In this document: positions 7,311 to 33,982 of the stretch, in pieces
Numbering within the stretch: position 1 is the stretch's first letter
Layout of the letters: the number at the start of each line of letters is the position of its first letter
Source: Candidatus Zhuqueibacterota bacterium
GTDB lineage: Bacteria; Zhuqueibacterota; Zhuqueibacteria; Zhuqueibacterales; Zhuqueibacteraceae
DNA length: 45,797 nt
Reading direction: 5' to 3'
Assembly: GCA_003576975.1 (NCBI GenBank)
Contig: QEVD01000005.1
Coordinates: 1 to 45,797, forward strand
The notes under the pieces: model-generated
Databases searched by the model: none
What the model was told of the DNA's origin: nothing
What the model saw: the letters and a program-made list of their open reading frames with translations, nothing else
Position numbers and translations under genes: made by a program

Positions 7311-7852
7311 ATGGTGGCCTGGCCGATAACCACGCCGCCGCCGGATTCCTTTTTGTCGTAGCGCCAGCCTTTGCCGGTTTTAAAAAGTTGCGAAACATAA
7401 ATCGTCGCGTTGAACGTGATGATTTCGCCGAGCGCGCCGGATTGCAACAGCTCTTTGGCTTTTGCGAATGTTTCGACATAGCGCATCATATAACCGACCA
7501 TCGTAGTTAGCTTCTTCTTTTCGATGTCGGCGACGAGATCATCAGCGTCGCGGCTTACGATACTCAGAGGTTTTTCCAAAAAGAAAGGAATGCCGCGTTT
7601 GACGCACTCTGCGGCCATGGGTACATGCAAAAACACGGGCGTCGCCAACACGGCCGCATCGGGTTTGGCCTTGTCGAGCATTTCACGATAATCATCGTAA
7701 ATGTTCAAGTCATCTTTCAAGCTTTGAGCGAAGCCGAGTAAAAATTTCGAAGTGTCGGCGATGGCGCTCAATCGCACGCCTTCCAATCCGTTCATGATGC
7801 CGGCATGCAAGAGTCCCATCTTGCCGATGCCGACCACTGCAACATTAAGCAT
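7307..7852 (-). CDS. Gfo/Idh/MocA oxidoreductase, N-terminal fragment (frameshifted)
   Basis: This encodes the Rossmann NAD(P)-binding half of a sugar-nucleotide dehydrogenase-type enzyme: MLNVAVVGIGKMGLLHAGIM (GxGxxG), PDAAVLATPVFLHVPMA, and the hallmark EKP in FFLEKPLS. It reaches GWRYDKKESGGGVVIGQ, then reads ATI and stops at TGA, where relatives read GHHLIDLL. A single missing G in the codon after CAG explains this. ATG 7852 has a strong AGGAG five bases upstream, better than most genes here, and a 146-base gap precedes it, so an internal promoter is possible. The intact enzyme would oxidise or reduce a nucleotide sugar for the polysaccharide. Confidence 0.8.
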   Translation of the reverse strand: MLNVAVVGIGKMGLLHAGIMNGLEGVRLSAIADTSKFLLGFAQSLKDDLNIYDDYREMLDKAKPDAAVLATPVFLHVPMAAECVKRGIPFFLEKPLSIVSRDADDLVADIEKKKLTTMVGYMMRYVETFAKAKELLQSGALGEIITFNATIYVSQLFKTGKGWRYDKKESGGGVVIGQATI

Positions 7853-7998: not shown

Positions 7999-9057
7999 TC
8001 AACGATCATGATGAGGTAAACGTTTTTTTGCGTAGGAGCCCGCTTTTGCCGGAGCGGAGTCTATTTTGACCTTTGCGCCGGCAAAGCCGTTGGTCGCCTC
8101 GGGCTTTTCCTGCTGAATTGCCTGCAATTCCAACTTTTTGATGCGGTATAGCGTGTCCTCCTGTAGCCGGCGGTTCCCGGCAATGAGATCAGCGACCAGG
8201 CCGATCATCGCAATTTGGAATCCGACAATCATCAAAACGGCGGAGAGAATCAACGATTGCACGTGGCCGCCGCCGCCGGCAGTGAAATAGTAATACAAGA
8301 ATCGGCCGGCGCCGAGCATACCGAGGCCGAAAACAATTCCACCGACCCAGGAAAACGCTTTGAGCGGCTCGTACATGACATAAATGCGCAGGATGGTGCC
8401 GATGCTGCGCTTCAAATAATCCGGGATGCTGGTGAACAGGCGCGATTCACGCAGCTTGCCGTTGGTGCTGATCTCGACATGGGTGAGGGCAATGTGTTTT
8501 TTGCCCGCTTGAATGATGGTTTCGAGCGTGTACGTGAAGCGCGAGATGACATTCATGCGCAGCGCGGCTTCGCGGCTGTAGGCGCGAAATCCACTGGTGG
8601 CGTCGGGCACCGTGGTTTCGGAAACGTGGCGCACGACCCAACTGCCGAGCTTCTGCAGCTTGATCTTAAGCGGCGAGAAATGCGAGATGTTTTCGACCTG
8701 GCGATCGCCGATGACCATGTCCGCTTTGTGCTCGAGGATGGGTCGCACGAGTTTTTCAATGTCTTTGCCGCTGTATTGATTGTCGGCGTCGGTGTTGACA
8801 ATGATGTCGGCGCCGAGTTTGACGCATGCGTCAAGGCCGGCCATGAAAGCTTCCGCCAGGCCTTTGCGGCTGGTGAAGCGCACGAGATGGGTGACGCCGT
8901 TTTCACGCGCGACGATTGACGTGCGATCCGTGCTGCCGTCGTCAATGATAAGGGTTTCAATCTCGTCGATGCCGTCGATGTGCGTGGGCAAATCGCGCAG
9001 GGTCATCGGCAAGGTCTGCTCTTCATTCAAGCAGGGAATTTGGATGATGAGTTTCAT
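7999..9057 (-). CDS. GT2 glycosyltransferase, dolichyl-phosphate-mannose-synthase type
   Basis: A 352-residue GT-A enzyme: IIQIPCLNEEQTLPMTL, then IIDDGSTDRT (nucleotide binding), and VNTDADNQYSG with the metal-binding DAD at residues 90-92. The acceptor-side segment PDATSGFRAYSREAAL follows. Two C-terminal transmembrane helices (about residues 240-310) anchor it, as in the DPM1/GtrB-like subfamily that transfers a sugar to polyprenyl phosphate. A charged cytoplasmic tail of about 45 residues ends the protein. ATG 9057 overlaps the stop of the preceding GT2 in an ATGA junction, with AGGAG just upstream. Its product could supply the GT39-like enzyme at 140-1852, which needs a polyprenyl-phosphate sugar; that link is inference. 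Confidence 0.87.
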   Translation of the reverse strand: MKLIIQIPCLNEEQTLPMTLRDLPTHIDGIDEIETLIIDDGSTDRTSIVARENGVTHLVRFTSRKGLAEAFMAGLDACVKLGADIIVNTDADNQYSGKDIEKLVRPILEHKADMVIGDRQVENISHFSPLKIKLQKLGSWVVRHVSETTVPDATSGFRAYSREAALRMNVISRFTYTLETIIQAGKKHIALTHVEISTNGKLRESRLFTSIPDYLKRSIGTILRIYVMYEPLKAFSWVGGIVFGLGMLGAGRFLYYYFTAGGGGHVQSLILSAVLMIVGFQIAMIGLVADLIAGNRRLQEDTLYRIKKLELQAIQQEKPEATNGFAGAKVKIDSAPAKAGSYAKKRLPHHDR

Positions 9058-10064
9058 GCTCCTACCACAGTCTCGATGTTATACTCCTTTTGTTCGCGGG
9101 CGTGCGTATAGGTGATCATTTCACCGATCAGGCCGATGGAAATCATTTGCAAACCGATCACCAACAGAAGCACGCTCAACAACAGCAGCGGCCTGCCGGC
9201 AATCGCGCCAAAACCAAAGAGTCGATAAAAGAACAAATACGCGCTCATACCCGCGCCGGCCAGCGTGAAAATAAATCCAAAAAAGCCGAGAAAGTGCAAC
9301 GGCTTTTTGGAATACTTCGTTACAAAAATCACGGCAACGATGTCGAGCAGGCGCTGGATGTATTCGCTGACGTAGCGCGATTGGCGAAACGTGCCGGCGA
9401 GTTGCTCGATCTGTTCCTCCGTCACGCAATAGCCTTTGCGCGCCGCCAAAACCGGGATAAAGATATTGAGATCGCCGTAGAAAATGATGTTGTCCAACAC
9501 CTCGCGCGAGGTTGCAATCACGCTGGAATTGATGTCGTGTACCTGCAATTTGCCAAACCGTTGCACGATCCAATTAAAGCTGCGCGAAACCATGCGATTC
9601 AAGCCGGAATCTTTGCGCGGGGTGCGCCAGCCCACGACGAGATCATTTCCGGCATCCATTTTCAGCAACAGTTTGGGCAGAGATTTTAAATTCACGCGCA
9701 CACGGGCAGCGGCGAACACGATGCGTTCTCCCAGGGCGTGTTTGAGGCCGGCGTCGAGCGCCGAGGTTTCGCCGAAGCTCGAGCGCATGCGAATCAATTT
9801 GACCTGAGCATCTTTGCGCGCAAGCTTTTCCAGCTCCAGCCAGGTGTTATCCGTGCTTGCGTCATCGACAAAGATAATCTCGAAGGTTTTGCCATACGCT
9901 TGCAGCCCCTGGCACAAATCCTGATAGATACCCGCAACCTCACCGCCCATGTTCATGATCGGCACAATGATGGAGACATGCACGAACTTTTCATCGCGGC
10001 CATTCGCCGATGACGGCGTTGTTGCCAGCGCCGGGGTGAGTGTTTTTTCAGTTTGTCGTGCCAT
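9054..10064 (-). CDS. GT2-family protein with degenerate DXD motif (probable pseudo-glycosyltransferase)
   Basis: A 336-residue paralogue of the neighbouring GT2. It keeps the N-terminal strand HVSIIVPIMN, the nucleotide-binding FVDDASTDNT (about 65-74), the WR..RKD segment after the active site, and two C-terminal membrane helices (about 255-315). The metal-binding stretch that reads VTMDGDLQ in the neighbour is here VFAAARVRVN (about 116-125), so both acidic residues are gone. The HHERKFGQSKY loop is replaced by QLAGTFRQSRY. It is probably catalytically dead, perhaps a partner of the adjacent enzyme. ATG 10064 was chosen over upstream ATG 10082 and GTG 10115 because it lies nearest the GT2 fold; the gene overlaps its predecessor by 17 bases. 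Confidence 0.8.
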   Translation of the reverse strand: MARQTEKTLTPALATTPSSANGRDEKFVHVSIIVPIMNMGGEVAGIYQDLCQGLQAYGKTFEIIFVDDASTDNTWLELEKLARKDAQVKLIRMRSSFGETSALDAGLKHALGERIVFAAARVRVNLKSLPKLLLKMDAGNDLVVGWRTPRKDSGLNRMVSRSFNWIVQRFGKLQVHDINSSVIATSREVLDNIIFYGDLNIFIPVLAARKGYCVTEEQIEQLAGTFRQSRYVSEYIQRLLDIVAVIFVTKYSKKPLHFLGFFGFIFTLAGAGMSAYLFFYRLFGFGAIAGRPLLLLSVLLLVIGLQMISIGLIGEMITYTHAREQKEYNIETVVGA

Positions 10065-11019
10065 GATAGTACTTGAATTCATAGAGACGCTCGTCACGTT
10101 TTTGACCTGTACCAACCACGCTGTTGGCGATCAAGCCATAAAATAGAAAATTAATGCCCGCGGCAAACAGCAGGAAAGCGACGGACATCAAGACGTTCAG
10201 CTCGTCGCTGCCGACAAATTGATTTTGACGCCATTCCAGGAGCAACGCTAGTAAGGCGGCGAGACCCAGCCCGTTGAAAAACACCGTCAACGCGCCAAAA
10301 AAGTGCAGCGGCCGGGTGAGATATTTGAGCAACAAATTCAACGTCATCAAATCCATGATCACGCGAAAGGTGCGCGTGATATTATATTTCGATTGCCCGA
10401 ATTTGCGCTCATGATGATTCACCACCATCTCGCTGATGCGCGCGCCTTCGATGCGCGCGAGCGCGGGAATGAACCGGTGCAATTCTCCGTACAAGCGGAT
10501 TTTCTGCACCACTTCAGAGCGATAGGCTTTGAGCGAACAGCCGGTGTCGTGCAAATCCACGCGTGTGGTCTTGCGAATCAAACGATTGGCGATTTTGCTC
10601 GGAATCTTGCGAATCACCAGCTTGTCTTTGCGATTCTTGCGCCAACCGCTGACGATGTCAAATCCTTCTTCCAGCTTGGCCACGACGTTGGGAATGTCCT
10701 TGGGGTCGTTTTGCAAATCGCCGTCCATCGTAACCACAACCTCGCCGCGCGCATGATCGAACCCGGCCGCCATTGCGGCGGACTGGCCATAATTGCCGCG
10801 GAATTTTACCACGCGTACATGCACATCATTCCGGGCGATTTGTTGCAGCAATTCGAATGTCCGGTCGGTGCTGCCGTCGTCGACAATAACGATCTCATAG
10901 CTTTTGCCCCATGCCTGCATCGCCGCGCTGATCGCGCGGTGCAGCAGCGGCACGTTCTCTTCCTCATTCATTACCGGAATGACAATGCTGCAATAGATTT
11001 TTTCAGTGGTTTTTGCCAT
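10048..11019 (-). CDS. GT2 glycosyltransferase, dolichyl-phosphate-mannose-synthase/GtrB type
   Basis: A 323-residue GT-A enzyme with all expected motifs: YCSIVIPVMNEEENV, IVDDGSTDRT (45-54), VVTMDGDLQNDPKD with the DGD at 99-101, and SGWRKNRKD. The acceptor loop LHDTGCSLKAYRSEV and HHERKFGQSKY are also present. Two transmembrane helices occupy roughly residues 235-300, typical of polyprenyl-phosphate glycosyltransferases (GtrB, ArnC, DPM-like). It should transfer a hexose from a nucleotide sugar to undecaprenyl phosphate on the cytoplasmic face. It overlaps the YdjM-like gene upstream and the DXD-less paralogue downstream by 17 bases each, an unusually tight arrangement that favours coordinated expression. 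Confidence 0.9.
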   Translation of the reverse strand: MAKTTEKIYCSIVIPVMNEEENVPLLHRAISAAMQAWGKSYEIVIVDDGSTDRTFELLQQIARNDVHVRVVKFRGNYGQSAAMAAGFDHARGEVVVTMDGDLQNDPKDIPNVVAKLEEGFDIVSGWRKNRKDKLVIRKIPSKIANRLIRKTTRVDLHDTGCSLKAYRSEVVQKIRLYGELHRFIPALARIEGARISEMVVNHHERKFGQSKYNITRTFRVIMDLMTLNLLLKYLTRPLHFFGALTVFFNGLGLAALLALLLEWRQNQFVGSDELNVLMSVAFLLFAAGINFLFYGLIANSVVGTGQKRDERLYEFKYYHGTTN

Positions 11020-11767
11020 TGCGAAATTCCGGTTGTTCGAGATCGATGTTATTGAGATCCAATGGCTGCGTTTTTATCTCAGCCCGTTGGTGTGTTGCCA
11101 GATCAGAGGTTTCTGCCTCGCGGCGCAATTGATCAATTTCAGGAGCCAATGAACGCGCTGTTGCAAGCATGCTCGGCTCCGATGATAATGCCGGCGTGGA
11201 ATTCCTGGTTGCCGGGCGCCGTGTGAATGCGCCATAAAATTTTAGTGTGCGCACAAACGCTGCGATGGGCAACATGATCGCCAACTCGAACAAGGCCACG
11301 CGCAGGTTGGCGGGATGAAAAAGCGATGCAAAAAAATCTCGTGACGAATCGGATTTGTGCACGGCGCCGAAAATATCCCATGAAATATCGTAGAATTGCA
11401 TGCTCAACGGCCAGAACAACGTCATGCCGTAAGGCGGCGCGCTGTCGACGGTGAACAGATCGAGGAGAAGATGCGAACTCACCGCTGTGAAGAACAGCAA
11501 AAAATAGGGCAAAAATCTCCCGCGTTTGCGCCAGTAGAAAAGGCCGCCCAACGCGCCGACAATCGCCGCAAAGCCCAAGCTGTGCGTCTGATAATGATGG
11601 TAACGATTCGGTTCGCCGACGAGATAGCCGGGCAGAAAATCGATGTCCGGCAAATTGGCCAGAACCATCAATATCAAAACATCCAGCCAAAAACTTCTTG
11701 TCAAGCGCAACGATGCGCCTTCAGCGATGGTGTATCCCATGAGCGAATGGGCAAACGGCAGAGGCAT
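11003..11767 (-). CDS. YdjM/LexA-binding-like membrane metal-dependent hydrolase
   Basis: A 254-residue protein starting MPLPFAHSLMGYTIAEGA. It shows the signature of the YdjM-type putative metal-dependent hydrolases: ANLPDIDFLPGYL, RYHHYQTHSLGFA and SHLLLDLFTVDSAPPYGM followed by LFWPLS. The His and Asp residues in these motifs are thought to bind metal. About four hydrophobic helices place it in the inner membrane; the last 80 residues are polar and variable. ATG 11767 is preceded by AGGAA at about 8 bases. A longer reading from 11863 would run back into the GNAT gene and has no motif support. The substrate is unknown; related proteins recur in exopolysaccharide loci. Confidence 0.82.
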   Translation of the reverse strand: MPLPFAHSLMGYTIAEGASLRLTRSFWLDVLILMVLANLPDIDFLPGYLVGEPNRYHHYQTHSLGFAAIVGALGGLFYWRKRGRFLPYFLLFFTAVSSHLLLDLFTVDSAPPYGMTLFWPLSMQFYDISWDIFGAVHKSDSSRDFFASLFHPANLRVALFELAIMLPIAAFVRTLKFYGAFTRRPATRNSTPALSSEPSMLATARSLAPEIDQLRREAETSDLATHQRAEIKTQPLDLNNIDLEQPEFRNGKNH

Positions 11768-11777
11768 GTTCGGATTC

Positions 11778-12950
11778 CTAATTCTTCGTTGCTGATCGTT
11801 GGTCGTTGGTTGCTTCGTCGTGATCGCCATAACGCAGGCGCCGGTAGCGCGCCAGCCAATCATTCAATCTTTTGCTCTCCGAGGCCTTTTCATAAACGCC
11901 TTCAAAAAAAGCCGCGCGTGCGGCAGCAAAACGATCATGAAAAATCTTGATATGGCAATTGCGCTTGGCCTGGCCGGTCCATTTGAACTTGTAGGGTTCG
12001 TCGCCACGCGACAGATCAAGCTCGCTCCAGCGGTTTTGAATACAGTCTTCAATGGCCATGCCCAGCAGCACGTTGCCGGCGCTGAACTTGTGAAATTGCG
12101 GCGCATGCGCATAGGTGTCGCCGTAATATTTACCGTTGCTCACATAGCCCGCGAGTCCGGCGGCAGGCTGGCCGTCGGCATAGAGCAGGTAAAGACGATA
12201 ATCACCGCGATGCGAGAGGCGCCGGCAGACTTCTTCCTCAAATTTAAAGACGCTTTCTTCCGCAAATCGCCCCGCGCCTTTTTCTTGCTGCCAGCGCGCT
12301 TGATAGATTGTCACGAGATCGCGAAAGCCATCAAACACGGCCGAAGAGTTTGTAAAAATCTTAAACTCTGTTTTGAAGGTTTTATCCAAAAACCGGCGAT
12401 CATAGCCGACATCTTTGCGCGTGCGCTTGCTCAACGTCTGTAAAAAACTTTCCCAATCCGTAGTCAGTGGAATGCTCACGCAGATACGTTGATGTTCCAC
12501 GCCAAAAAGCGGAAACGCGTCGCGCATTTGCTGGAAAAGATGCGGAAGATTCGTTGAGTTTTCCGGGACATCCTTAAGCTCAACCAACCGCCAGTTCTCA
12601 TTACCGCTTTTCAAATACTCCCGAACTTCGCGAAAAAAAAACGCCTCGCGCCCGGCGGCGGCGACGAAGTCGAGATAATCACCGCGTTTTTGCCCGATGA
12701 AGCCGAGATGCCGCAACGGAAAGCCATAAAACTTCTTGCGGAGATAAAATGGCGCGATACCGACAAGCTTATCGTCTTCGTGAACCAGCAAAAGGCGCAA
12801 GGAATCCTCGTCGCCAAAATTTTTCCACCACGCAAAATTCCATTCCCAGGATTGAAACGGCGTGTGATTGGAATTACTACGATAAAGCGTATCCCAAGCG
12901 GATTGCAGGCTTTCGAACTCGGAGGTGGTTGTGACGACGCGTAATGACAT
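11778..12950 (-). CDS. GNAT acetyltransferase, FemAB/CelD-like (BioF2 type)
   Basis: A 390-residue protein. N-terminal FQSWEWNFAWWKNFG and LVGIAPFYLRKKFYGFPL, and a C-terminal GNAT domain with ADGQPAAGLAGYVSNGKYYG, FSAGNVLLGMAIEDCIQNRW and LDLSRGDEPYKFKWTGQ, match the Acetyltransf_6 (CelD/BioF2-like, FemAB-related) family found in polysaccharide loci. The probable role is acyl or aminoacyl transfer to a sugar. Start ATG 12950 has no good ribosome site, but the family N-terminus is close. The very end of the protein is a polar tail (EATNDQRSATKN) without family similarity. It is 10 bases from the YdjM-like gene. Family is firm; donor and acceptor are not known. Confidence 0.87.
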   Translation of the reverse strand: MSLRVVTTTSEFESLQSAWDTLYRSNSNHTPFQSWEWNFAWWKNFGDEDSLRLLLVHEDDKLVGIAPFYLRKKFYGFPLRHLGFIGQKRGDYLDFVAAAGREAFFFREVREYLKSGNENWRLVELKDVPENSTNLPHLFQQMRDAFPLFGVEHQRICVSIPLTTDWESFLQTLSKRTRKDVGYDRRFLDKTFKTEFKIFTNSSAVFDGFRDLVTIYQARWQQEKGAGRFAEESVFKFEEEVCRRLSHRGDYRLYLLYADGQPAAGLAGYVSNGKYYGDTYAHAPQFHKFSAGNVLLGMAIEDCIQNRWSELDLSRGDEPYKFKWTGQAKRNCHIKIFHDRFAAARAAFFEGVYEKASESKRLNDWLARYRRLRYGDHDEATNDQRSATKN

Positions 12951-13069: not shown

Positions 13070-13885
13070 TCAGGTTGAAATCAGCTCGGCTGCCCGATGC
13101 GTCGATTCCACCACGGCTTTGATCAACGTGACGCGCAAGCCGCCTTCTTCCAATTTCAACAAACCGTCGATCGTGCAGCCGGCCGGCGTGGTGACGGCGT
13201 CTTTGAGCAATGCCGGATGCGCTTCGGTGTCAAGCACCATCCTGGCGGCGCCGTGACACATTTGCGCGGCCAGCTCGGTGGCGACATTGCGCGGCAAGCC
13301 GACTTTCACGCCGCCTTCTGCCAGCGATTCCAGCACCACGTAAATAAACGCCGGGCCGCTTGCGCTCAGCGCCGTCACCGCATCCATATGCTTTTCATCC
13401 AAAATCAGGGTGCGGCCAACCGCGTCAAAAAGCCGGCGCGCTTGCGTGAGATGTTCTGGCGTGGCGTGTTTGCCCGCGCACAGAACCGTCATGCCTGCGC
13501 CGATGAGGCTGGGCGTGTTGGGCATGGCGCGCACAACCGGTATATTCGCCTCAAGATATTTTTCAATGAACGCCGTGGTGGCAGACGCGACGATCGAAAT
13601 CACCAGATGATGCGGCCGGATATGCGGCTTGATCTCGGCAAGCACCTCGCGCATGGCCTGCGGTTTTATGCCGAGCAGAACAATCCCGGCTTGTTGCACA
13701 GCGGCGATATTGTTTGACATTGCCGTCACACCCAGGCGTTGGGCGATTTCCTCGACGCGCTCGGCATGTCTGGCGGTTGCAATAATTTGCTCGGCCTGAA
13801 ACAGGCCGGCCTCACGCAACGCTTTGATAAGCGTGCCGCCCATCTTGCCGGCGCCGAGCACGGCTAACTTCGAATTCATTTCCAT
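13070..13885 (-). CDS. proC: Pyrroline-5-carboxylate reductase
   Basis: The last enzyme of proline synthesis, reducing 1-pyrroline-5-carboxylate to proline with NAD(P)H in the cytoplasm. The 271-residue protein has the usual length. It shows the Rossmann motif LAVLGAGKMGGTLIKAL at the N-terminus, VVRAMPNTPSLIGAGMTVL in the middle, and the C-terminal family signature around ALSASGPAFIYVVLESLAEG and LKDAVTTPAGCTIDGL. ATG 13885 has AGGAG and GGAAGG upstream; ATG 13879 two codons later is about equally good. A reading back to 13945 lacks family support. It is an odd passenger in a polysaccharide locus, 33 bases from the LPG-TM gene's stop, so it is probably co-transcribed. Confidence 0.95.
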   Translation of the reverse strand: MEMNSKLAVLGAGKMGGTLIKALREAGLFQAEQIIATARHAERVEEIAQRLGVTAMSNNIAAVQQAGIVLLGIKPQAMREVLAEIKPHIRPHHLVISIVASATTAFIEKYLEANIPVVRAMPNTPSLIGAGMTVLCAGKHATPEHLTQARRLFDAVGRTLILDEKHMDAVTALSASGPAFIYVVLESLAEGGVKVGLPRNVATELAAQMCHGAARMVLDTEAHPALLKDAVTTPAGCTIDGLLKLEEGGLRVTLIKAVVESTHRAAELIST

Positions 13886-13978
13886 CACCTTCCGTCTCCT
13901 ATCCCTGAGATTGTAACTGGCTGCGCGATTCTCGTGCGCCATCATTTGACATCAAGAATATCGCCGGTCGCGCACGGT

Positions 13979-14968
13979 TCAAAACGATTCCTTGGGAATA
14001 ACTTGAGTTGTTTGTCCGGATTCTGCGGGACGGCTTTTCTCAAGTTGTTCTTTCGCCAACAAGTACCACAAACCGCCGAGCAATGCAAGCGCCACGGATT
14101 GCGCAAAGATCATCAACGAGAGCGACAAAGCCTGCGCTTGCGCCACACCGGCTTGCGCAAAGAAAAAGACAAATGCGCCTTCGCGAATGCCAAGACCCGC
14201 CAACGAGACGGGCAGCAAGGCAATCGTCGTAATCAATGGAATATAAATGAAGTAATGCCAGATTGCCAGTTCAATGCCAAGTGAACGCCCGACAAGATAA
14301 ATAATAAAAATGCCGAGAATTTGATAGAGCCACGTCAATGCCAGCAACAACAGCAGGGCCCGGCGCGATTGACCGTACACCAGGATGCTCGCGCGAAAAC
14401 CGGCAATTTTATCGGCAAGCGAGTTTAAGCCCAAGCGCTGCAGCGCCGTTTGCAGCAATCCGGCGGCGTTTTTTTGCAACAACACACTCACCGCAGTGAT
14501 GAACGCAACCAGGCCGGCGAGCACAAGCCAGAAGAGTCTGGCCTCCTGCAGCGCGCGACTGACCGGGATGGCAACGATAAGCGCCAACATAAAAATAACA
14601 AGAAAGCCGATCACACGTGTGACAAAGAGCGAACCCGCGGCATCGACGCGATGCTTGAGATAACGCCCCAGGCGATAGGCGCGAATCACATCCATCGCCA
14701 CACTTGTAGGCAGAAACGTGCCGAAAAAGCTGCCGACACAATGCACTTCAAGCGTCTTGATAAACGGCGGCGCACTGTGATGCGCCGCCAATAAAATTTG
14801 CCAGCAATAAGTCACGAGTACTTGCTGCATGAGAAAGAGCACAAAGGCCGCCAACCAGAGATTGAGGTTGGTTGCAGCAAATGCTGCAAGAATTTGTTGC
14901 AGATCAACCTTCCAAAGCAACAGCGCCATGAGGGCAAGGCTGAAGGCTGCTTTCATCCAGAGTTTCAT
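13979..14968 (-). CDS. LPG-synthase-TM (flippase-like, UPF0104) membrane protein
   Basis: A 329-residue protein with about eight transmembrane helices of the lysylphosphatidylglycerol-synthase transmembrane family (also seen in AglD-type proteins). Recognisable are the first helix with ALLLWKVD, FFGTFLPTSVAMDVIRAYRL (the conserved GxxxPT/DxxR region), and SLAGLGIREGAFVFFF near the C-terminus (P-x-GLG-x-REG). Such proteins lacking the soluble synthetase domain occur in many polysaccharide and glycolipid loci and may move lipid-linked substrates; their biochemistry is poorly defined. ATG 14968 is preceded by AGGAA at about 12 bases. Located between asnB-like and proC on the same strand. Confidence 0.88.
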   Translation of the reverse strand: MKLWMKAAFSLALMALLLWKVDLQQILAAFAATNLNLWLAAFVLFLMQQVLVTYCWQILLAAHHSAPPFIKTLEVHCVGSFFGTFLPTSVAMDVIRAYRLGRYLKHRVDAAGSLFVTRVIGFLVIFMLALIVAIPVSRALQEARLFWLVLAGLVAFITAVSVLLQKNAAGLLQTALQRLGLNSLADKIAGFRASILVYGQSRRALLLLLALTWLYQILGIFIIYLVGRSLGIELAIWHYFIYIPLITTIALLPVSLAGLGIREGAFVFFFAQAGVAQAQALSLSLMIFAQSVALALLGGLWYLLAKEQLEKSRPAESGQTTQVIPKESF

Positions 14969-15006: not shown

Positions 15007-16917
15007 CTACGCGTGATCCACATGCGAGCGGCACCACAACTCGAACATCATCAATCCCCATAACCGGTGTGAATGATTATGGGCTTTGCTTTTGTGTTCG
15101 GAGATCAATTGCCGGACGTATTGCTGATTGAACAAGCCGCGCTGTTTAATCACCTCCGGGGAAAGGTATTCTTCGAACAGGTTTTGCACGGGCGCATCTT
15201 CGCGCATCCAATTTTTCATGGGCACGCTGTGACCGAGCTTGTCTTTGCGATAAACGATTTCATCGGGCAGCTCGCCGGCCATGATTTTGTGCAACAACAC
15301 TTTGGTTTCGCCGCCCTTGCCGATTTTCAACGCGCTGGGAATACGCGCGGTATACTCGACCAAGCGATAATCCAGCAGCGGCACGCGGCCTTCAACGCCA
15401 AACTGGCGAATCAATTCCATGCGACGGAGGTAGAAGCCGACGACGGAATAATAATCGCCGTATAGGGTCGAGCTTAACTCGTCGCGACCGTCGGCTTCCG
15501 CATAAATCTCCAGCAATTCTGCAAACGGATTGAAGCCATTCACGTGCGCCAATGCTTCCGGCATGAACAGCCGGCGCAATTCTTCAGTGGTATAATAAAT
15601 GCGCCAGCGATTGCTGTGCAGCGAAGCCGGAAACGCCGTGCTATAGGAAAAACGTTTTGCCTTTACCACCAGACTTTTTTTGGAGTCGGTATCCGGCAGC
15701 CATTGCAAAGTCTTGGTGAGCGGCTGGCGAATGAATCCCGGAATCTTGTCGAAGGTTTTGGCGGCGCGATCTGCAAGATAAACCGGATGGCCGCCGAACA
15801 ACTCATCGCCGCCGTCGCCGGTCAAGACGTAGTCGGCAAATTCTTTGACTTTCGAGCCGAGCAGCAACGAAGCGATTTCAATGCCAATATCCGAAAACGG
15901 CTCTTGCGCCGATTGCGCCACGCGCGCAAGCTGCTGCGCTGCATCGTCGGCGGTGTATTCGACTTGATGGTGTTGCGTGTCATAGCGTTCGGACATCACG
16001 CGCGCATAATGCGATTCATCGAACGTTTTGCCGTGACAGCGGAAGGAAAACGTATGAATCGGCTGTTGCAACGCGCTGCGCATGAAATGGACCACCGAGC
16101 TGGAATCCATACCGCCGCTGAGAAACGCGCCCGCGCGATAGCCGCTGTTGAGGCGGAGGCGCACGGCATCGCGCATTAATTCGAGCAGCTCAGTTTTGTA
16201 CGTCGCATCATCCTTGTTGAATGGTTCAGCAAAGGAGGGCCGCCAATACTGTTCGATGCTCATTTTGCCGCGCTCGATCTTGATAAAAAATCCCGGACGC
16301 AGCGTACTGACTCCGGCAAAAATCGTTTCGTAGCCGGGATTATAATTGAACAACAGATAGCGCTGCACCACGCCGAAGTTGAGTTCGCGTCCGATCGCCG
16401 GAATGCGTGTGAGCCGCTGCAACTCGCTCGAGAAATAGAGCATGCCTTCCCGGCGGCTGTAATAGACCGGCTCCACGCCGAGATGATCGCGTATCAGATA
16501 GAACCGCTGCGCCGGCGCATCATACAGCGCAATCACGAAATTACCGTTGATCTGCCGGCAGAATTTTTCACCGAGTTTATAATAAAGCTGCAAGATGATG
16601 GCGGCGTTGTTGGCCGTCGCTTGCAGGCGGGCTTGCGAGAGGTATTGTTTGATCAACTCGCCGCGGTTAAAAAGATTGCCGTGAATCGCGGCAAAACTGC
16701 CTTTGTCATCTTGATAAACGGCGAGGCTGGCGTCCAACGTTGGAACACCCGCGGCCGTCATGGCGACGGCAGCCTCATGCGCAGCCGCGTGGAAACGAAT
16801 CTCGCCGCGCTCGCGATCGTGCAGAAACGAATGCAAAAGCGTGTTGCGGTCTTCGAGCGCTGCGGCGCTCGACGCGTCTTTCGTGGCAGAATTCTGTCCG
16901 ATAATGCCGAATATCAT
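15007..16917 (-). CDS. Asparagine-synthetase-like protein with inactive glutaminase domain
   Basis: A 636-residue AsnB-family protein. The ATP-pyrophosphatase domain looks functional: FLSGGMDSSSVVHF (PP-loop, 267-273) and YVLTGDGGDELFGGHP. The N-terminal Ntn-glutaminase fold keeps the segment SFAAIHGNLFNRGEL and NFVIALYDAPAQRFYLIRDH, but starts MIFGIIGQ where active enzymes start MCGI. RGPD, NGEIYN and SDTE are also missing or altered. It should therefore not hydrolyse glutamine, and would depend on free ammonia, another subunit, or do a different ATP-driven ligation. ATG 16917 gives the family N-terminus, so the missing Cys is not a start-site error. It neighbours the deacetylase and contrasts with the canonical AsnB at 23869-25752. 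Confidence 0.9.
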   Translation of the reverse strand: MIFGIIGQNSATKDASSAAALEDRNTLLHSFLHDRERGEIRFHAAAHEAAVAMTAAGVPTLDASLAVYQDDKGSFAAIHGNLFNRGELIKQYLSQARLQATANNAAIILQLYYKLGEKFCRQINGNFVIALYDAPAQRFYLIRDHLGVEPVYYSRREGMLYFSSELQRLTRIPAIGRELNFGVVQRYLLFNYNPGYETIFAGVSTLRPGFFIKIERGKMSIEQYWRPSFAEPFNKDDATYKTELLELMRDAVRLRLNSGYRAGAFLSGGMDSSSVVHFMRSALQQPIHTFSFRCHGKTFDESHYARVMSERYDTQHHQVEYTADDAAQQLARVAQSAQEPFSDIGIEIASLLLGSKVKEFADYVLTGDGGDELFGGHPVYLADRAAKTFDKIPGFIRQPLTKTLQWLPDTDSKKSLVVKAKRFSYSTAFPASLHSNRWRIYYTTEELRRLFMPEALAHVNGFNPFAELLEIYAEADGRDELSSTLYGDYYSVVGFYLRRMELIRQFGVEGRVPLLDYRLVEYTARIPSALKIGKGGETKVLLHKIMAGELPDEIVYRKDKLGHSVPMKNWMREDAPVQNLFEEYLSPEVIKQRGLFNQQYVRQLISEHKSKAHNHSHRLWGLMMFELWCRSHVDHA

Positions 16918-16991: not shown

Positions 16992-18224
16992 TCAGTTTTG
17001 ACCAAGATTTCGTGTAAATGCCGGCGCATGCGCGTGAAATTTTTGTATCAAAATCTCGCGCAAGCTTTTACGGCCATCGCCCGGCAAGCGAAAAACGTAT
17101 TGATCTTCCAGGCGCGGCACGTTGAACAAATCCTCTCCGCGGCGGTTGCTCGGGCGCTGCGCGACAATGCCCCAGTAATTGACATGATAACCGGCTTGTT
17201 GTGAGAGTTTCACCGCCAGCTTGCTGCCCATGAACCACGGATAGCAAAGCTGCGTCACGGTTTTGCCCGGCAGCCGTTCTTCAATCAATTGCTTGGATTG
17301 TTTCAAATCCGTCAAAATTGCTTCTTTTTGCTCCACCGGCGTTTCAAAGCGGGTCATGCTGTGCTGTTTTCGGGCATGGCGATAAAAGGCAAACAATTCC
17401 TTGCGCCAATCGCGCTGCGCAAAAAATTTCTCGTTGCCATGCTGGGCGACGAAATTCGCGCTGGCTTCGCGTAATGCTTCGTCATCAAAGAACTGTAAAC
17501 GGCCTGCCATGCGCGGTTCAGCGCGATAAATCGGGGTTCCGAGCGCGATCTTGCGGCCAAAATCCAAAACTCCGTGATTGCGATAAACCGGCACGTTGAT
17601 GTTTCCAAAAAAATAAGTTTGAAATCTTGGGTGAAAAAAGTCCACCACCTTGTTTTCTATGCAAGCCTGATGGTGATGCATGGTGTGTGATTGAAAATCG
17701 ATCACACCACTATCATGCATTACGCGAATTTCATGCCACGAGCACAGCGGGAAGCTGGATTGTTCTCGCGCAAGCAAATCTTGCGAGGAGGCGCGATGCG
17801 CAATGTAATCGTCGTAAGTTTTGCTTGCCGGCGCATTTTCTGGCGTCAGACCCGGGATGATAAAACTGATGGCCTTGAAACCATATTTGCGCAGCAACGC
17901 AAACGCAACCGTCCACAACGAGGCGCGGCCGTCATCGAACGTGAGCACGATGCTGCGCTCGGGAATCGGTTTCTCGCCTGCAATGCACGCTCGAAACTCT
18001 TCGCCGTCGAGTGTGCGATAGCGGTTAGCTGCGAGAAATTGCAGTTTTTCTTCGAACGAGACCGGTTCAACGGTGTGAAAATGAAAAACTGGAATCTCAT
18101 TGCGCAGCGGGTCGGGCTTGGTGGAAAACATAAAGCCCGGATAATTGCGCTGCACCAGCGCAAGAATATCCGGCCCGTTCTTGCGATAACTCCACTGGAG
18201 TTTGTTGGTAAGCGTTGCGAGCAT
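16992..18224 (-). CDS. Polysaccharide deacetylase (CE4/NodB-like)
   Basis: A 410-residue protein with a NodB-homology domain: IPVFHFHTVEPVSFEEKLQF, then SIVLTFDDGRASLW with the catalytic and metal-binding Asp pair (95-99), and DFQSHTMHHH (about 177-185) with the metal His residues of the SHTxxH motif. It removes N- or O-acetyl groups from a glycan, using a divalent metal. A long insertion and C-terminal half (about 190-410) contain CYPWFMGSKLAVKLSQQAGY, similar to the late barrel motifs of the fold. No signal peptide is visible, so it may act on cytoplasmic or lipid-linked intermediates. Start ATG 18224. Similar deacetylases are standard in exosortase-type exopolysaccharide loci. Confidence 0.88.
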   Translation of the reverse strand: MLATLTNKLQWSYRKNGPDILALVQRNYPGFMFSTKPDPLRNEIPVFHFHTVEPVSFEEKLQFLAANRYRTLDGEEFRACIAGEKPIPERSIVLTFDDGRASLWTVAFALLRKYGFKAISFIIPGLTPENAPASKTYDDYIAHRASSQDLLAREQSSFPLCSWHEIRVMHDSGVIDFQSHTMHHHQACIENKVVDFFHPRFQTYFFGNINVPVYRNHGVLDFGRKIALGTPIYRAEPRMAGRLQFFDDEALREASANFVAQHGNEKFFAQRDWRKELFAFYRHARKQHSMTRFETPVEQKEAILTDLKQSKQLIEERLPGKTVTQLCYPWFMGSKLAVKLSQQAGYHVNYWGIVAQRPSNRRGEDLFNVPRLEDQYVFRLPGDGRKSLREILIQKFHAHAPAFTRNLGQN

Positions 18225-18466: not shown

Positions 18467-19600
18467 TCACGCCCGGCCATTCGACAGTAATTTCGCGTAT
18501 AGTTCTTCTAACGCTGCGACATTGCGTTCCACGCTGAAAGCCTGGCTGCGCTCACGCGCGGCTTTGCTGAATTTTTCCCGCAATGAAGCCTCGCGCAGCA
18601 AGCGCAACCAACCTTGCGCAAGTGCGACGCTATCTGCGGCGGGAACCAACAAGCCATTGACCTCATGCTGCACCATTTCCTTCATGCCACCAACGGCGGT
18701 AACGACTACCGGCTTGCCGGCGGCCATGGCTTCCGCCAGCGCAAATGGAAATCCTTCCGTCAACGAGGCCATCACTGCGATATCAAATGCGGCAAACGCC
18801 GCGGCGACTTCCGAGACGAACCCGGCAAAATGGAGTTTGCCTTTAAGATTGAGTTTCATCGCGAGCGCTTCAAGCTCTTCACGCAGGGGGCCGTCGCCCG
18901 CAATGATAAAACGCGCCTCGGGATATTCTTGCGCGACTTTGCCGGCGGCTTCGACGAAATAGCGGTTGCCTTTTTCTTCACGCAGCCGCGTCATCGTGCC
19001 GATGACAAGTTGATGATCAGCGAGGCCAAATTTTTCACGAAAGGCCTTGACCTTTGCCGGATCCGCAGTTTTAAAGTTATTCAGATTGACGCCGTTCCAG
19101 ACCACGCTTGTCTTACCCGCCGGCACGTGGCGTCCCGAAACCAAGAATTCCCGCACGCTTTCACTGACGCCCACCGCCAAATCCGTTCTGTTGCGCAGCA
19201 GCCAATCCATCACAAATTGATGCGGCTGAATTTTGAGAATGGCCCATTCGTGTACCAACGCGGGAATCTTCACCCGTTTCGCGGCGAGCCGGCCGAAGTT
19301 CGCGGCGCTATAGCCGTGCAAATGCAGCAAATCGATTTTTTCCCGCTTCACCAGATCGGCAATTGCGCCGACGTTGGCGAAGGAATACTTGCCTTTGTCG
19401 ATGTAAAAAAGCCGGACACCGTTGTCTTCGAGATGCTTGCTGGCGGCGTCCGGCGGGCGCAGTACGGAGGCCATTACTTCAAAACGGCGCGTGTCGGCAT
19501 GCTTGAACCACTCGATGAAACAGAGCGCAACGCTGCTTGGGTTGACTCCGTCCATGGAGAGTTTGTCGATCACGTGGAGAATGCGATGCGTTCTGCTCAT
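18467..19600 (-). CDS. Glycosyltransferase family 4
   Basis: A 377-residue GT-B enzyme. N-terminal RILHVIDKLSMDGVNPSSV and IDLLHLHGYSAANFGRLAA form the acceptor domain. The donor domain shows SVVWNGVNLNNF, IGTMTRLREEKGNRYFVEAA (the conserved R and K that contact the donor phosphates), FIIAGDGPLREELEALA, and SLTEGFPFALAEAMAAGKPV (EX7E, catalytic and ribose-binding glutamates) with VVTAVGG following. ATG 19600 has AAGAAGG about 6 bases upstream; ATG 19630 ten codons earlier has no ribosome site. The motifs are all intact, so the enzyme should be active. The sugar is unknown. Confidence 0.92.
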   Translation of the reverse strand: MSRTHRILHVIDKLSMDGVNPSSVALCFIEWFKHADTRRFEVMASVLRPPDAASKHLEDNGVRLFYIDKGKYSFANVGAIADLVKREKIDLLHLHGYSAANFGRLAAKRVKIPALVHEWAILKIQPHQFVMDWLLRNRTDLAVGVSESVREFLVSGRHVPAGKTSVVWNGVNLNNFKTADPAKVKAFREKFGLADHQLVIGTMTRLREEKGNRYFVEAAGKVAQEYPEARFIIAGDGPLREELEALAMKLNLKGKLHFAGFVSEVAAAFAAFDIAVMASLTEGFPFALAEAMAAGKPVVVTAVGGMKEMVQHEVNGLLVPAADSVALAQGWLRLLREASLREKFSKAARERSQAFSVERNVAALEELYAKLLSNGRA

Positions 19601-19665
19601 ATTCGCCTTCTTGCGCTCTCGCGTGCTCATGTTCAATATCGAATCGCGAGGAGTATGAGTTTCGT

Positions 19666-20451
19666 TTAGACAGTTTCGATTTTGCCCGACATTTCGCGGC
19701 GATCCTTGACTACCTTTGCGGGCACGCCCACGGCGATTTTCCAGTCGGGAATATCTAGAGTGATGACGGCGCCCGCGCCAATGATGCATTCGCGGCCAAC
19801 CGTCACGCCGTCGAACACCACGGCGTGCGCACCCAACCAGGAATTGTCGCCAACCTCGATGCCTTGACTCGAGCGTTCTTGTTCAATGATCGGAATATCG
19901 CTGCGGTTGAACGTGTGCGTGCCACCCACGAGATAAACATATGCCGCCATCAACACGTTCTTGCCCACGCGCACGCGGCTGGCAGAAAAAATTTCGCTGT
20001 TGAAGCCGAGGTTGGCGTTATCGTCGATGACGATGTCGCCATTTTTGCAGCTCAGAATGGTATTGCGGCCCACAAACACGCCGTTGCCAATGAACAAGCC
20101 CTCGTTATCATTCCCTTTGGCATCCAGCACCACATTGTCATCGATGACCACATCATTGCCAAGATGAATTTTGCGCGGATGGCGCAACACCACGTTGCTG
20201 CCGAAGGTGACATTGCGCCCGACGCTGCCCAAGAGCAGCGGATACAACTTTCCCCGCAGAACCAAGCCGAGCGCGCCCGGCAGCCAGCTCGCGACAAGCG
20301 TGATCAATTCGTACTTGATCAAATACCAGGTGCTGCTCTCGCCGAGCACGATTTCCTTGTATTTCTGCAGCTTCGATTTCTTTGCGTCAAACAGCTCTTT
20401 CTGAATCTCGACTGTTTCACGGCGCGGTTTGTGATTGAGGTTGTCAGTCAT
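19666..20451 (-). CDS. Hexapeptide-repeat (LbH) acyltransferase
   Basis: A 261-residue protein with a polar, charged first 35 residues, a hydrophobic stretch (about 47-70), and then a left-handed beta-helix from about residue 75. Its repeating units (such as GSNVVLRHPRKIHLGNDVVI, GLFIGNGVFVGRNTIL and VGDNSWLGAHAVVF) end in GAGAVITLDIPDWKIAVGVP, the typical closing turn of xenobiotic/serine O-acetyltransferase-like enzymes. The His in GGTHTFNRSD fits the catalytic loop. It probably O- or N-acetylates a sugar using acetyl-CoA, as a trimer. Start ATG 20451 has no clear ribosome site; the reading extends upstream to 20523 but without similarity. The 180 bases before it show no gene. Confidence 0.87.
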   Translation of the reverse strand: MTDNLNHKPRRETVEIQKELFDAKKSKLQKYKEIVLGESSTWYLIKYELITLVASWLPGALGLVLRGKLYPLLLGSVGRNVTFGSNVVLRHPRKIHLGNDVVIDDNVVLDAKGNDNEGLFIGNGVFVGRNTILSCKNGDIVIDDNANLGFNSEIFSASRVRVGKNVLMAAYVYLVGGTHTFNRSDIPIIEQERSSQGIEVGDNSWLGAHAVVFDGVTVGRECIIGAGAVITLDIPDWKIAVGVPAKVVKDRREMSGKIETV

Positions 20452-20631
20452 GAGGTTTTCATGAAAAAAATTATAAGAAACATCTGAATGGCCGTTGCCA
20501 CTTTGCCGTCGCGGCCAACGCAACGGCGCCTGCTTCTGTTAGTCCAACCTGGCAAATCCAAAACAAAAACAACATACGGCGCCAACAGACATTATTACAA
20601 TCAACAATATCCGAAGGCGTAATCGTGCAAC

Positions 20632-21630
20632 TTAATTTAACAGCCCGTTGGCACGATACCAATCTGCGGTGATTTTCAGGCCGGCGTCCAGGTTGAATTT
20701 CGGTTCGTAGCCGAGCAGGCGGCGAGCTTTGGAGATATCGAATGCACGATCTTTGACAAAGAAATCAACGCGCCGGCGATACACCGGAGGTTCAAGGCGC
20801 AGCGGTTTGCAAATTAGTTCGCACAGCAATCCTGCGGTCCAAACCGGCCAAACCGGAAAGTGTTTTGTGGGTTTCGGCACGCCCAGTGCGGTCGCGATAC
20901 GCGCCACCAACTCATTCAGCGTTGTGTACTCGCTGCCGCCAATGGTGAATACTTGTCCGAGTGCTTCCGGCTTTTCGCCGGCCAAAATAATGCCGGCGGC
21001 GAGATCCTCGACAAACGTCATGTGATACAACACTTCGCCGCTGCCAAACATGCGAAAGCGGCCGTTGTTGACAAATTTGAATATTTTGAGAAAACGTTGA
21101 TCGCCCGGGCCATAAATGCCGACCGGACGCACGACGACACCCGGCCAGCGATGGTCCTCAAAAAATTTGCGCGCGAGTTTTTCGCCCTCGAGCTTGGATT
21201 CCTGATAAACATCGCCCGGGCCATAGGGCGCTTCCTCGGTTGCCGGCGGGTTCTTGATATCGCCCTGTACCCCCACAGTGCTGCAATGCACGAAGCGATT
21301 AACTTGCGAGGCCAGCGCCGCTTCGAGCAAATGGCGGGTGCCTTCAAAATTCACCTGCCAAAAATATTTGTTCGGCACACCCTCCGTGCGATAGGCTGCG
21401 GCAATATGATAAACCGTTTCAACGCCTTTCATCGCGGCCCGCAAATCATGTACGCTGTCTTTATCGGCAAAATTGCCATAAACCGGCTCAATATCAATGC
21501 CTTTGAGCAGCGAGAGATTGCTGCTCTTGCGTACCAGGCCGCGTACGTGATAGCCTTTTTGCAAGAGGTGTTTACAGAGGTAACTGCCGGTGAAGCCATT
21601 CGCACCGGTAACGAGAACTTTTCCTGGCAT
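20632..21630 (-). CDS. NAD-dependent epimerase/dehydratase (extended SDR)
   Basis: A 332-residue extended short-chain dehydrogenase: KVLVTGANGFTGSYLCKHLL (GxxGxxG cofactor loop near the N-terminus), VYHIAAAYRTEG, HCSTVGVQGD, and the catalytic YxxxK in DVYQESKLEGEK, followed by RPVGIYGPGDQRFLKIFKFV and HMTFVEDLAAGI. It acts in the cytoplasm on a nucleotide sugar or a related substrate. It resembles the dihydroflavonol-reductase-like branch of the family rather than GalE, so epimerase, reductase or dehydratase activity is open. ATG 21630 is preceded by GGAG at about 8 bases; a longer reading to 21675 is not supported by the fold. Confidence 0.88.
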   Translation of the reverse strand: MPGKVLVTGANGFTGSYLCKHLLQKGYHVRGLVRKSSNLSLLKGIDIEPVYGNFADKDSVHDLRAAMKGVETVYHIAAAYRTEGVPNKYFWQVNFEGTRHLLEAALASQVNRFVHCSTVGVQGDIKNPPATEEAPYGPGDVYQESKLEGEKLARKFFEDHRWPGVVVRPVGIYGPGDQRFLKIFKFVNNGRFRMFGSGEVLYHMTFVEDLAAGIILAGEKPEALGQVFTIGGSEYTTLNELVARIATALGVPKPTKHFPVWPVWTAGLLCELICKPLRLEPPVYRRRVDFFVKDRAFDISKARRLLGYEPKFNLDAGLKITADWYRANGLLN

Positions 21631-21815
21631 GAATAAAACTCCGCTAGTCATTTGCCGGAAGGCGTGAGGGGACACTGAGGAAGGGTAACATGAAGCAAAA
21701 AGTCTTTAATCGGTACTATTCCCATCACACCTCTTCATCGCAACGAACAGATGAAAACCTGGGCCTGGAAGAGCTTCGGACATTGACAAAGCCGTTCGAT
21801 GCGAAGCCACAAACA

Positions 21816-22649
21816 TCATTTATAACAAAACGCCATAATGTGCCAACCCAGCGGTCTCACCAAAAATTTTGGTAGTAGATTGAAGCCCGGCACAAAAACG
21901 CCGTTGAACAGCGCCGCCTTCCAGCCTTTTTGCAGCTTGCTGGCGACGGGAAATCGTTCGGGTACGATGCGAACCTTGTCGAACGGCGTGAGCATGCGTT
22001 TGAATTCTGCAATCGAATATTTGTTGAGCACGGGCGCGTCTTCATGCTCCAGCTCGACTTTCATCACCTTTGACATGGCATTGAGCCAGGAAATGCGGTT
22101 GTAGACCATCATGATCGCCTCGCCCCCGGGTTTGAGCACGCGATGCAGCTCCTTCACCATTTTGTTGGCGTCCGAAGTATATTGCAGCACGCCGTGCGCA
22201 TATACCATGTCAAATCGATTGTTCTCGAACTCGAGCGCTTCGCCATTCATCAAACGAAACTCACCGGCCGCGCCGTTCAACTCGAAATTTTTTTTGGCGA
22301 GATCAATGGATTGTTTGGCTAAATCCACGCCGATGACGCGCGCACCGCCCTGCGCAAACCGCAGGAGATCGATGCCGACGCCGCAGCCAACTTCCAGTAT
22401 ACTCTTCCCGCGATAACCGTTAAAATCCACCACCTTGGGCAAGTAACGCAATTTGTCAAAACGGTACTCGTCCAGATCTTGAAAAAAGCCTTTCGACCCG
22501 ACGGGGTGTTTGGCAATGGCAAGATCATGAATATGCGCATTCCAATACTCGGCAATGGCATGCAACAGTTGCCCGTTTTGAGCGGGCTTGCCTGAAGCGC
22601 GTGAGGAGGTTTTAATTCGCTCAAGTTGTGAAGTTGTGAGGTCGGTCAT
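21816..22649 (-). CDS. Class I SAM-dependent methyltransferase
   Basis: A 277-residue protein with the Rossmann methyltransferase fold: KSILEVGCGVGIDLLRFAQG (motif I, SAM binding), RVIGVDLAKQSIDLAKKN (acidic motif II residue), FDMVYAHGVLQYTSDANKMV (motif IV region) and LHRVLKPGGEAIMMVYNRIS. The C-terminal 80 residues form a less conserved cap. It resembles UbiE/Methyltransf_11-type enzymes that methylate small molecules or sugars in polysaccharide loci. ATG 22649 is preceded by GGAAC. Gaps of 129 bases before and about 185 after leave it a loosely attached operon member. Substrate unknown. Confidence 0.9.
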   Translation of the reverse strand: MTDLTTSQLERIKTSSRASGKPAQNGQLLHAIAEYWNAHIHDLAIAKHPVGSKGFFQDLDEYRFDKLRYLPKVVDFNGYRGKSILEVGCGVGIDLLRFAQGGARVIGVDLAKQSIDLAKKNFELNGAAGEFRLMNGEALEFENNRFDMVYAHGVLQYTSDANKMVKELHRVLKPGGEAIMMVYNRISWLNAMSKVMKVELEHEDAPVLNKYSIAEFKRMLTPFDKVRIVPERFPVASKLQKGWKAALFNGVFVPGFNLLPKFLVRPLGWHIMAFCYK

Positions 22650-22778: not shown

Positions 22779-23858
22779 CTAAAAATGTTCGGCGGTCGTG
22801 AAGATCGGTTTGAGTGCGCGATGCAAACGCAAAGGCGTCATGCGCTGCACGGCCATCGTCAAGGGCACGACGCTTTCGAAAAAGCCCGCAGGCAATTCCT
22901 GGCGCGCAATGCGCGTGCGCACTTCGCTGGCGCGGCGGCCGTACCAAATTTTTTCAAAGCTTTGTTCGCGAATATTGCCCATGGAGGCCGTTTCGAGCGG
23001 ATCGGGATAAACATTGCCGCGCGGGTCGATATTGACAAAAGCGAATCCCGCAATGCTGTGTTGTTCCCGCAGCTTATGCGGATTCTCGATGAAGGAGGCA
23101 AACTGGCGATAATAATCACGATTCATCGGCAACAGTTCACCGTACATTTTGAGCACGCGCTCAACCAACGTTTGCAGCGTGGCGGCGTCGCCCGGACCGA
23201 AAGCCAACTCCTCATCGACACGATACTTCACTTGCGGCAGATGCAATGCCGGTTGAAACGACAGGCCGTCAAGCGCGCGCGATTTGACGAAGCGCGCCAT
23301 GTTCTCAAGATCATACATGTTGGCCTTGTTCACCGTGAACGCGATGAAAATTTTGGGGCGCGCGTTGCTGCGGAGAGATTTGAGGTTTTCAATCCCCTGG
23401 CTGGCCAGTTCGAAATACCCCTTGATGCCGCGCAGCGCATCATTCAACTCGGGCGTGCTGCCGTCGAGCGAAATATAGATCAAATCCAAACCGGCGTCAA
23501 TGAGATTTTTGGCGCGACGATCGTTGATCAAAAGGCCGTTCGACATCAAGGAGGTTGACAAATGGCAGCTTTTGGCCCACGCAATCAGCTCAAAAATATC
23601 CTTGCGCAACAGCGGCTCGCCGCCGGTGAAACACAAGTTCATCACGCCGTTATCCGCAAGCTGCCGGATCAGGTTCTTACCCTCCGCCGTCGACAGCATG
23701 CTGGGATCGTCTTTCTCCTGCCAACGATCGCATGTACGGCATTTGGCGTTGCAAACGGAAAGCACTTCCCACGCCGCTTTGATCGGCCCGATGATCGGTT
23801 CGTGCTCGCCTTTCGCAAAGCGCAAAAAGTTCTGCAGATGTTTTACTTGCTTGAACAT
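22779..23858 (-). CDS. Radical SAM protein, SPASM-like C-terminus without cluster cysteines
   Basis: A 359-residue radical SAM enzyme. The [4Fe-4S] motif CNAKCRTC is at residues 36-43, followed by LCFTGGEPLLRKDIFELI (SAM-binding GGEP) and LIYISLDGSTPELNDALRG. The later part (FVNIDPRGNVYPDPLETASM, then GNIREQSFEKIWYGR) aligns with the SPASM region of PqqE/MoaA-like proteins, yet no cysteine remains after about residue 95, so no auxiliary cluster can be bound. It is cytoplasmic and oxygen-sensitive by family. A GAGG site precedes ATG 23858, and the gene follows asnB by 10 bases, suggesting a shared job, for example sugar or peptide modification. The reaction is unknown. Confidence 0.88.
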   Translation of the reverse strand: MFKQVKHLQNFLRFAKGEHEPIIGPIKAAWEVLSVCNAKCRTCDRWQEKDDPSMLSTAEGKNLIRQLADNGVMNLCFTGGEPLLRKDIFELIAWAKSCHLSTSLMSNGLLINDRRAKNLIDAGLDLIYISLDGSTPELNDALRGIKGYFELASQGIENLKSLRSNARPKIFIAFTVNKANMYDLENMARFVKSRALDGLSFQPALHLPQVKYRVDEELAFGPGDAATLQTLVERVLKMYGELLPMNRDYYRQFASFIENPHKLREQHSIAGFAFVNIDPRGNVYPDPLETASMGNIREQSFEKIWYGRRASEVRTRIARQELPAGFFESVVPLTMAVQRMTPLRLHRALKPIFTTAEHF

Positions 23859-33922: not shown

Positions 33923-33982
33923 GTTCTCCAAACTCCTTGTAAACAAATCTGTAAAAGCATGACTCTAAAAACGCGATCGCAT

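Follow-up and report, generated by a model that had tools for sequence, protein, structure and literature searches.

A conserved AsnB-type protein without glutaminase residues, a putative glutamine-independent amide ligase of a surface-polysaccharide operon

Analysis of the window, a stretch of 45,797 nucleotides of DNA from Candidatus Zhuqueibacterota, identified a Cys-less AsnB-type protein of 636 amino acids (15007-16917, minus strand) belonging to a real, ancient and specific lineage. With modest confidence, it is proposed from its sequence to be a glutamine-independent, ATP-dependent amide ligase (carboxylate-amine) of a surface-polysaccharide operon, derived from an AsnB/WbpS-type amidotransferase and using an amine that is probably not ammonia.

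The first-pass annotation of this DNA had described an AsnB paralogue without glutaminase residues, and the ORF was confirmed on the minus strand with a protein start of MIFGIIG, in which MIFG (16906-16917, minus strand) replaces the M-Cys-Gly-Ile N-terminus. An in-frame TAG five codons 5' of the ATG leaves no other start from which an N-terminal Cys could come, bearing out the earlier claim that the start is not misannotated. Also as described, the remaining glutaminase motifs were seen in the translation to be absent or altered, with RGPD gone, NGEIYN changed to HGNLFN and SDTE to ANNA, while two synthetase motifs were intact. These are the PP-loop SGGMDSS (residues 267-273; 16099-16119, minus strand), conserved in 39/39 homologues except at its fourth position, and TGDGGDELFGG (residues 366-376; 15790-15822, minus strand), corresponding to the E. 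coli E348/D351 region. Lys560 (15238-15240, minus strand), the equivalent of E. coli Lys449, lies within RKDKLGHS with a one-residue insertion and is likewise found in 39/39. Examination with Pfam gave a match to Asn_synthase (PF00733, E=1.7e-75), with GATase_7 matched only from profile position 20. No NCBIfam model cut-off was reached, the best model being TIGR03108 at 325.8 bits against a cut-off of 816.9.

Residues were counted in 39 Cys-less homologues and 102 canonical AsnBs using E. coli AsnB numbering, the key columns of which agree with PDB alignments. Cys1, R30, R49 and N74 were each found in 0/39 Cys-less homologues, with remnants of glutamine binding limited to E76 (3/39) and D98 (5/39); all six are present in essentially all of the canonical proteins. 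The Cys-less lineage therefore does not carry the residues of a class-II (Ntn) amidotransferase (Cys1; R49/N74/E76/D98), while those of an AsnB-type synthetase (PF00733), namely the PP-loop Ser/Gly/Asp, D351 (the PPi/Mg Asp), E352 and K449, were present in all 39.

Homologues were found with an alignment-based search of genome contigs, a single-protein search having given no match. Relatives named by this search include candidate division KSB1, Zixibacteria SM23_81, Desulforhopalus sp. IMCC35007, a Desulfobulbaceae MAG and others. Of 60 relatives, 31 carry the Cys-less gene, each as a single copy, a count that excludes two genomes (G011 and G038) whose matches were canonical AsnB. Across the phylum it was found in 44/82 genomes at E <= 1e-118, including 12 of the 19 outside the class, with N-termini inspected for part of these 12 copies. 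The protein is identical in a second assembly of the window's species. The 80 loci of the search split cleanly, those with at least 39% identity being without the Cys2, RGPD and NGE motifs and those with at most 35% being canonical, bar a few truncated or motif-variant rows. On a tree of 62 proteins the Cys-less rows formed one clade (support 100/100, stem 0.68), and the 39 inspected homologues cover much of phylum KSB1, Zixibacteria and Desulfobulbales. Three distant members have a Cys at position 3 (L084 and L085, MWCG; L087, MICG), with RGPD and NGE motifs absent. Conservation of the lineage, which the first-pass annotation had put forward as a check, is thus upheld; relatives with an intact Cys and RGPD, which it had named as grounds for rejecting the observation, were searched for and none was found in the lineage, so this refutation failed.

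The gene is located in an operon for which the following order was established (coordinates on the minus strand): a Wzz/Wzc-type chain-length protein with a ParA-like ATPase domain (31574-33946), an NAD-dependent sugar epimerase/dehydratase (30584-31543), an exopolysaccharide polyprenyl glycosylphosphotransferase (29083-30540), a nucleotide-sugar (UDP-glucose) 6-dehydrogenase of the Ugd/TuaD type (27606-28991), a GT4 glycosyltransferase (25762-26952), a glutamine-dependent, TIGR03108-like AsnB paralogue (23869-25752; 676 bits, cut-off 816.9), a radical SAM/SPASM protein (22779-23858) and a SAM methyltransferase (21816-22649). These are followed by an SDR/epimerase (20632-21675), a hexapeptide-repeat acetyltransferase (19666-20523), a second GT4 glycosyltransferase with a true start that may be internal (18467-19789), a PgaB-like polysaccharide deacetylase (16992-18224), the Cys-less AsnB, an LPG_synthase_TM flippase-like membrane protein (13979-14968), ProC, a GNAT/FemAB-like transferase (Acetyltransf_6; 11778-12950), a YdjM-like membrane protein (11003-11863) and, kept beside the latter, three consecutive GT2 glycosyltransferases found class-wide (7999-11019, comprising 7999-9057, 9054-10115 and 10048-11019). 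The surface-polysaccharide setting beside Ugd and a glutamine-dependent AsnB that had been noted earlier is thereby confirmed, as is the presence of full motifs in the canonical AsnB (MCGI, HRGPD, FNGEIYN and KSDTE), approximately 7 kb from the Cys-less gene.

Several further features were observed. The pyrroline-5-carboxylate reductase ProC (13070-13945), which scored above its NCBIfam cut-off, is encoded within the polysaccharide cluster, a location that it keeps in several families. A frameshift divides a GFO/IDH/MocA oxidoreductase gene (6828-7852, minus strand) into two ORFs, and the gene is a single open frame of about 350 codons in both other species of the genus. A protein of 324 amino acids (5857-6831), to which no Pfam or NCBIfam model matched, shares 94% identity with its counterpart in a sister species and 72% with that in a different family of the class. 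At some other loci, an FAD-dependent oxidoreductase of the DAO type is encoded between the canonical and Cys-less AsnB (L096, 8221-9705; L067, 4229-5998; L057, 4314-5990), two of these proteins carrying a glycerophosphate-oxidase domain at the C-terminus, and a carbamoyltransferase gene directly follows the Cys-less AsnB of Zixibacteria SM23_81 (L094, 11840-13582).

Comparison of neighbourhoods showed a canonical AsnB 6-9 kb away and co-directional in 23 of 29 loci, several of the loci ending at contig ends. The Cys-less gene still has the canonical AsnB, GT4 and SDR as neighbours in Zixibacteria and Desulforhopalus, and the SDR/epimerase is near it in Desulfobulbales also. Genome-wide, a canonical AsnB was found in 28 of the 31 carriers, the remaining three being two incomplete genomes and one in which the gene is in two pieces. 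It was also found in 22 of 29 genomes without the Cys-less gene, and any dependence is therefore one-way at most. In most genomes without the Cys-less gene the two ends of the cluster are retained, and wherever the intervening slot was checked it was occupied by secreted apiosidase-like or PKD-domain proteins and by no other ligase; the Cys-less AsnB can thus be regarded as an accessory step of a class-wide polysaccharide. The GT2 trio was considered as a marker of Cys-less loci and rejected, being present in 8/12 non-carrier clusters as well (in one of them only partly inside the examined stretch). The constant co-occurrence with deacetylase and GNAT genes that had been proposed for testing did not hold: the deacetylase was near 19/29 copies and the GNAT near 8/29, counts that are partly affected by short contigs, and both were missing from several families that have the Cys-less gene. 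Strict linkage to the deacetylase, GNAT, radical SAM or ProC was rejected from these neighbourhood counts, and no dedicated-amine gene was constant around the Cys-less AsnB.

In human asparagine synthetase (ASNS), the lining of the ammonia tunnel includes Val119, Val141, Arg142, Leu255, Met344, Ala404 and Leu415, with a salt bridge between Arg142 and Asp405 in the closed state (PMC11615228). Alignment with phmmer placed human R142 at Glu149 and A404 at Arg499 of the window protein. Glu149 (16471-16473, minus strand), at the tunnel-gate position, is Glu in 33/39 Cys-less homologues and Lys in 102/102 canonical AsnBs. Arg499 (15421-15423, minus strand) is Arg in 39/39 and never Arg in the canonical proteins, in which the position is non-basic and mostly Val. 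Human position 119 is Met in 101/102 canonical AsnBs and mostly Asn, Lys, Gln or Ser in the Cys-less lineage, while position 405 changes from Asp to Met or Leu. From the human enzyme we infer that Glu149 and Arg499 are in contact, as a charge-swapped pair that would plug the tunnel. The synthetase pocket also has its own signature relative to canonical AsnBs, consisting of R293-C294 for G-F (FRC294), G345 for S, A349 for P, H377 for Y, R499 for V, H563 for F and an inserted D559. What is new here is the rebuilding of the tunnel lining in the Cys-less lineage; together with the pocket signature, it points away from the use of ammonia delivered through the protein's own N-terminal domain.

The proposed mechanism begins with the C-terminal synthetase domain, which would adenylate a carboxylate (most likely the C6 carboxyl group of a uronic acid, whether within the polysaccharide or in a precursor of it) and release PPi. 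An amine would then attack the acyl-AMP, resulting in an amide. The N-terminal domain would perform no glutamine hydrolysis and persist as a structural domain. As charged residues (Glu149/Arg499) appear to fill the tunnel, ammonia arriving from the N-domain side is probably not the amine used, and the synthetase site would instead admit a larger amine such as an amino acid or an amino sugar. With the whole glutaminase lost, the tunnel and pocket remodelled and the adenylating machinery kept, the best reading is an amide ligase that takes a different amine. We infer in this way the activity, carboxylate and amine of the enzyme as well as its action on uronic acids.

The main rival explanation is an ammonia-dependent uronamide synthetase with WbpS chemistry, which would use free NH4+ or ammonia from the canonical AsnB of the operon, possibly as a heterodimer. 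Glutaminase loss alone does not exclude ammonia because canonical AsnBs can use it in free form. AsnB-type synthetases do accept free ammonia, as described for PesC (PMC13060819) and, for canonical asparagine synthetases, as cited in the same paper. The close, co-directional canonical AsnB in most carriers would also suit this explanation, but that gene is nearly as frequent where the Cys-less gene is absent, and the charged residues at the tunnel entry and remodelled pocket amount to more than the loss of a glutaminase. Ammonia use is considered the less likely of the two options, and rather unlikely in itself. The ligase type suggested by the first-pass annotation accordingly stands in part: a glutaminase-dead paralogue that would use ATP is retained, while its supply with ammonia, including that of a partner, was not established.

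Formation of an intramolecular amide, that is, of a lactam within an amino-uronic sugar in the manner of beta-lactam synthetase and lasso cyclases, is improbable. Known glutaminase-dead AsnB relatives do catalyse such reactions, and the nearest folds include those of beta-lactam and carbapenam synthetases. However, the sequence is distant from these families, scoring 178.3 bits with the lasso cyclase model (NF033535) against a cut-off of 525, and no peptide precursor was noticed in the locus, nor specifically a lasso precursor peptide or leader protease. Furthermore, D368 of the window protein aligns with E. coli E348, a column that is also Asp in canonical bacterial AsnBs and at which beta-lactam synthetase presumably has the catalytic Tyr of its Tyr-Glu dyad.

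Less probable still is a catalytically silent protein that partners the canonical AsnB in a structural or regulatory role, for which the intact AsnB of the operon and the eroded N-domain might be taken to speak. Omega values from three within-genus pairs, of which several dS values were >1 and so close to saturation, were about 0.08-0.10 for the synthetase domain and 0.17-0.24 for the N-domain. Both domains are under purifying selection, with the old glutaminase domain relaxed. The ratio of N-domain to synthetase-domain identity, calculated relative to the window protein in 22 genomes having both paralogues, averaged 0.68 for the Cys-less protein and 0.96 for the operon canonical AsnB (Wilcoxon p=5e-7, only indicative as these genomes are related). 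A synthetase-domain omega of about 0.09, with ATP-PPase residues and the catalytic Lys complete in every homologue, argues against a silent partner. Sequencing error, a misannotated start or recent decay, conceivable in a fragmented draft assembly in which another window gene is frameshifted relative to relatives, is refuted by the identical protein of the second assembly, the same state in 39 homologues, the lack of another start and the purifying selection.

If the amide ligase reading is taken further, the lineage could represent a new AsnB-derived family in which the tunnel has become a charged plug and uronic acids of surface polysaccharides are joined to an amine other than ammonia, such as an amino acid or an amino sugar, with a glutamine-dependent uronamide synthetase working from the same operon, giving a polysaccharide with both primary and substituted amides; this extension is tentative. 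Glutaminase-dead relatives of AsnB are already known for antibiotic and peptide ring closure, and a conserved example among polysaccharide genes would widen this strategy to glycans and hint at the kind of enzyme that attaches substituents to uronic acids through amide bonds. The lineage also offers a testable case of ammonia-tunnel retirement (Ala404 to Arg, Arg142 to Glu), with a paralogue pair in one operon allowing two chemistries to be compared side by side and a homologue available in the genome of a Desulforhopalus strain.

Among known systems, the AsnB-type WbpS makes uronamides in polysaccharides (PMC7468200); lactam formation and peptide amidation are further reactions of AsnB-like enzymes (PMC13060819). 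A literature search on AsnB in O-antigen, capsule and polysaccharide amidation found no paper. The Cys-less AsnB resembles the WbpS/eps_aminotran_1 group (TIGR03108; uronamide synthetases of O-antigen and PEP-CTERM loci) in its two-domain architecture, polysaccharide locus and best NCBIfam match, but differs in scoring far under the 816.9 cut-off, in lacking Cys1, R30, R49 and N74, and in its own pocket signature. An exosortase/PEP-CTERM role, considered because of TIGR03108, was rejected as no exosortase gene (PF09721) was matched in the genome of the window, a 94% complete draft; 6/60 relatives scored over the cut-off of that profile. A linking-sugar role in type IX secretion (T9SS) was also considered, from PMC7468200 and from the sorting tails (PF18962) of >100 proteins in this genome, which has two strong C25 sortase-type peptidases. 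Regarding parts of the Wbp/Vim linking-sugar pathway (VimA-like FemAB TIGR03019, deacetylase, WbpS), a deacetylase is present and the locus GNAT had no NCBIfam match. C25 sortases do not discriminate here, being present in 58/60 relatives irrespective of the Cys-less gene.

Additional AsnB-type proteins were observed in the same genome. A second tandem (C175:1568-5104; L005, L007) pairs a canonical AsnB (MCGIYG) with an AsnB-like protein that has no Cys2 (MEGICG), the latter falling outside the Cys-less clade with TIGR03108 as its best NCBIfam model (276 bits). Further proteins start with MSGICG (L010), MPGIFG (L011) and MSGIVG (L012), the last being nearest to the lasso cyclase model, under its cut-off.

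An AlphaFold2 model of the Cys-less AsnB (19 sequences) had a mean pLDDT of 86 and a pTM of 0.89, with residues 9-64, the former RGPD segment, mostly at pLDDT <50. The nearest solved folds (Foldseek) were TsnB9, beta-lactam synthetase, AsnB and carbapenam synthetase. The hydroxyamidotransferase TsnB9 (7YLZ) was the best PDB match both by sequence profile and by fold, at 18-19% identity, but in the alignment it retains the GE-YN and SDTE motifs absent from the window protein. E. coli AsnB and human ASNS have the catalytic residues of the synthetase domain in common with the Cys-less AsnB, which differs from them in lacking the glutaminase site and in the replacement of tunnel positions 119, 142, 404 and 405. 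Beta-lactam and carbapenam synthetases are AsnB-fold enzymes with a dead glutaminase, and lasso peptide isopeptide cyclases are AsnB-type ATP-dependent amide formers that use a non-ammonia amine. The two synthetases share the fold and the dead glutaminase with the window protein and are among its top Foldseek hits, at identities of 16-18% (beta-lactam synthetase) and 14-15% (carbapenam synthetase), but theirs is an antibiotic locus and the present one a polysaccharide locus. The best reading is that the Cys-less AsnB would work like beta-lactam synthetase or the lasso cyclases while belonging to neither family.
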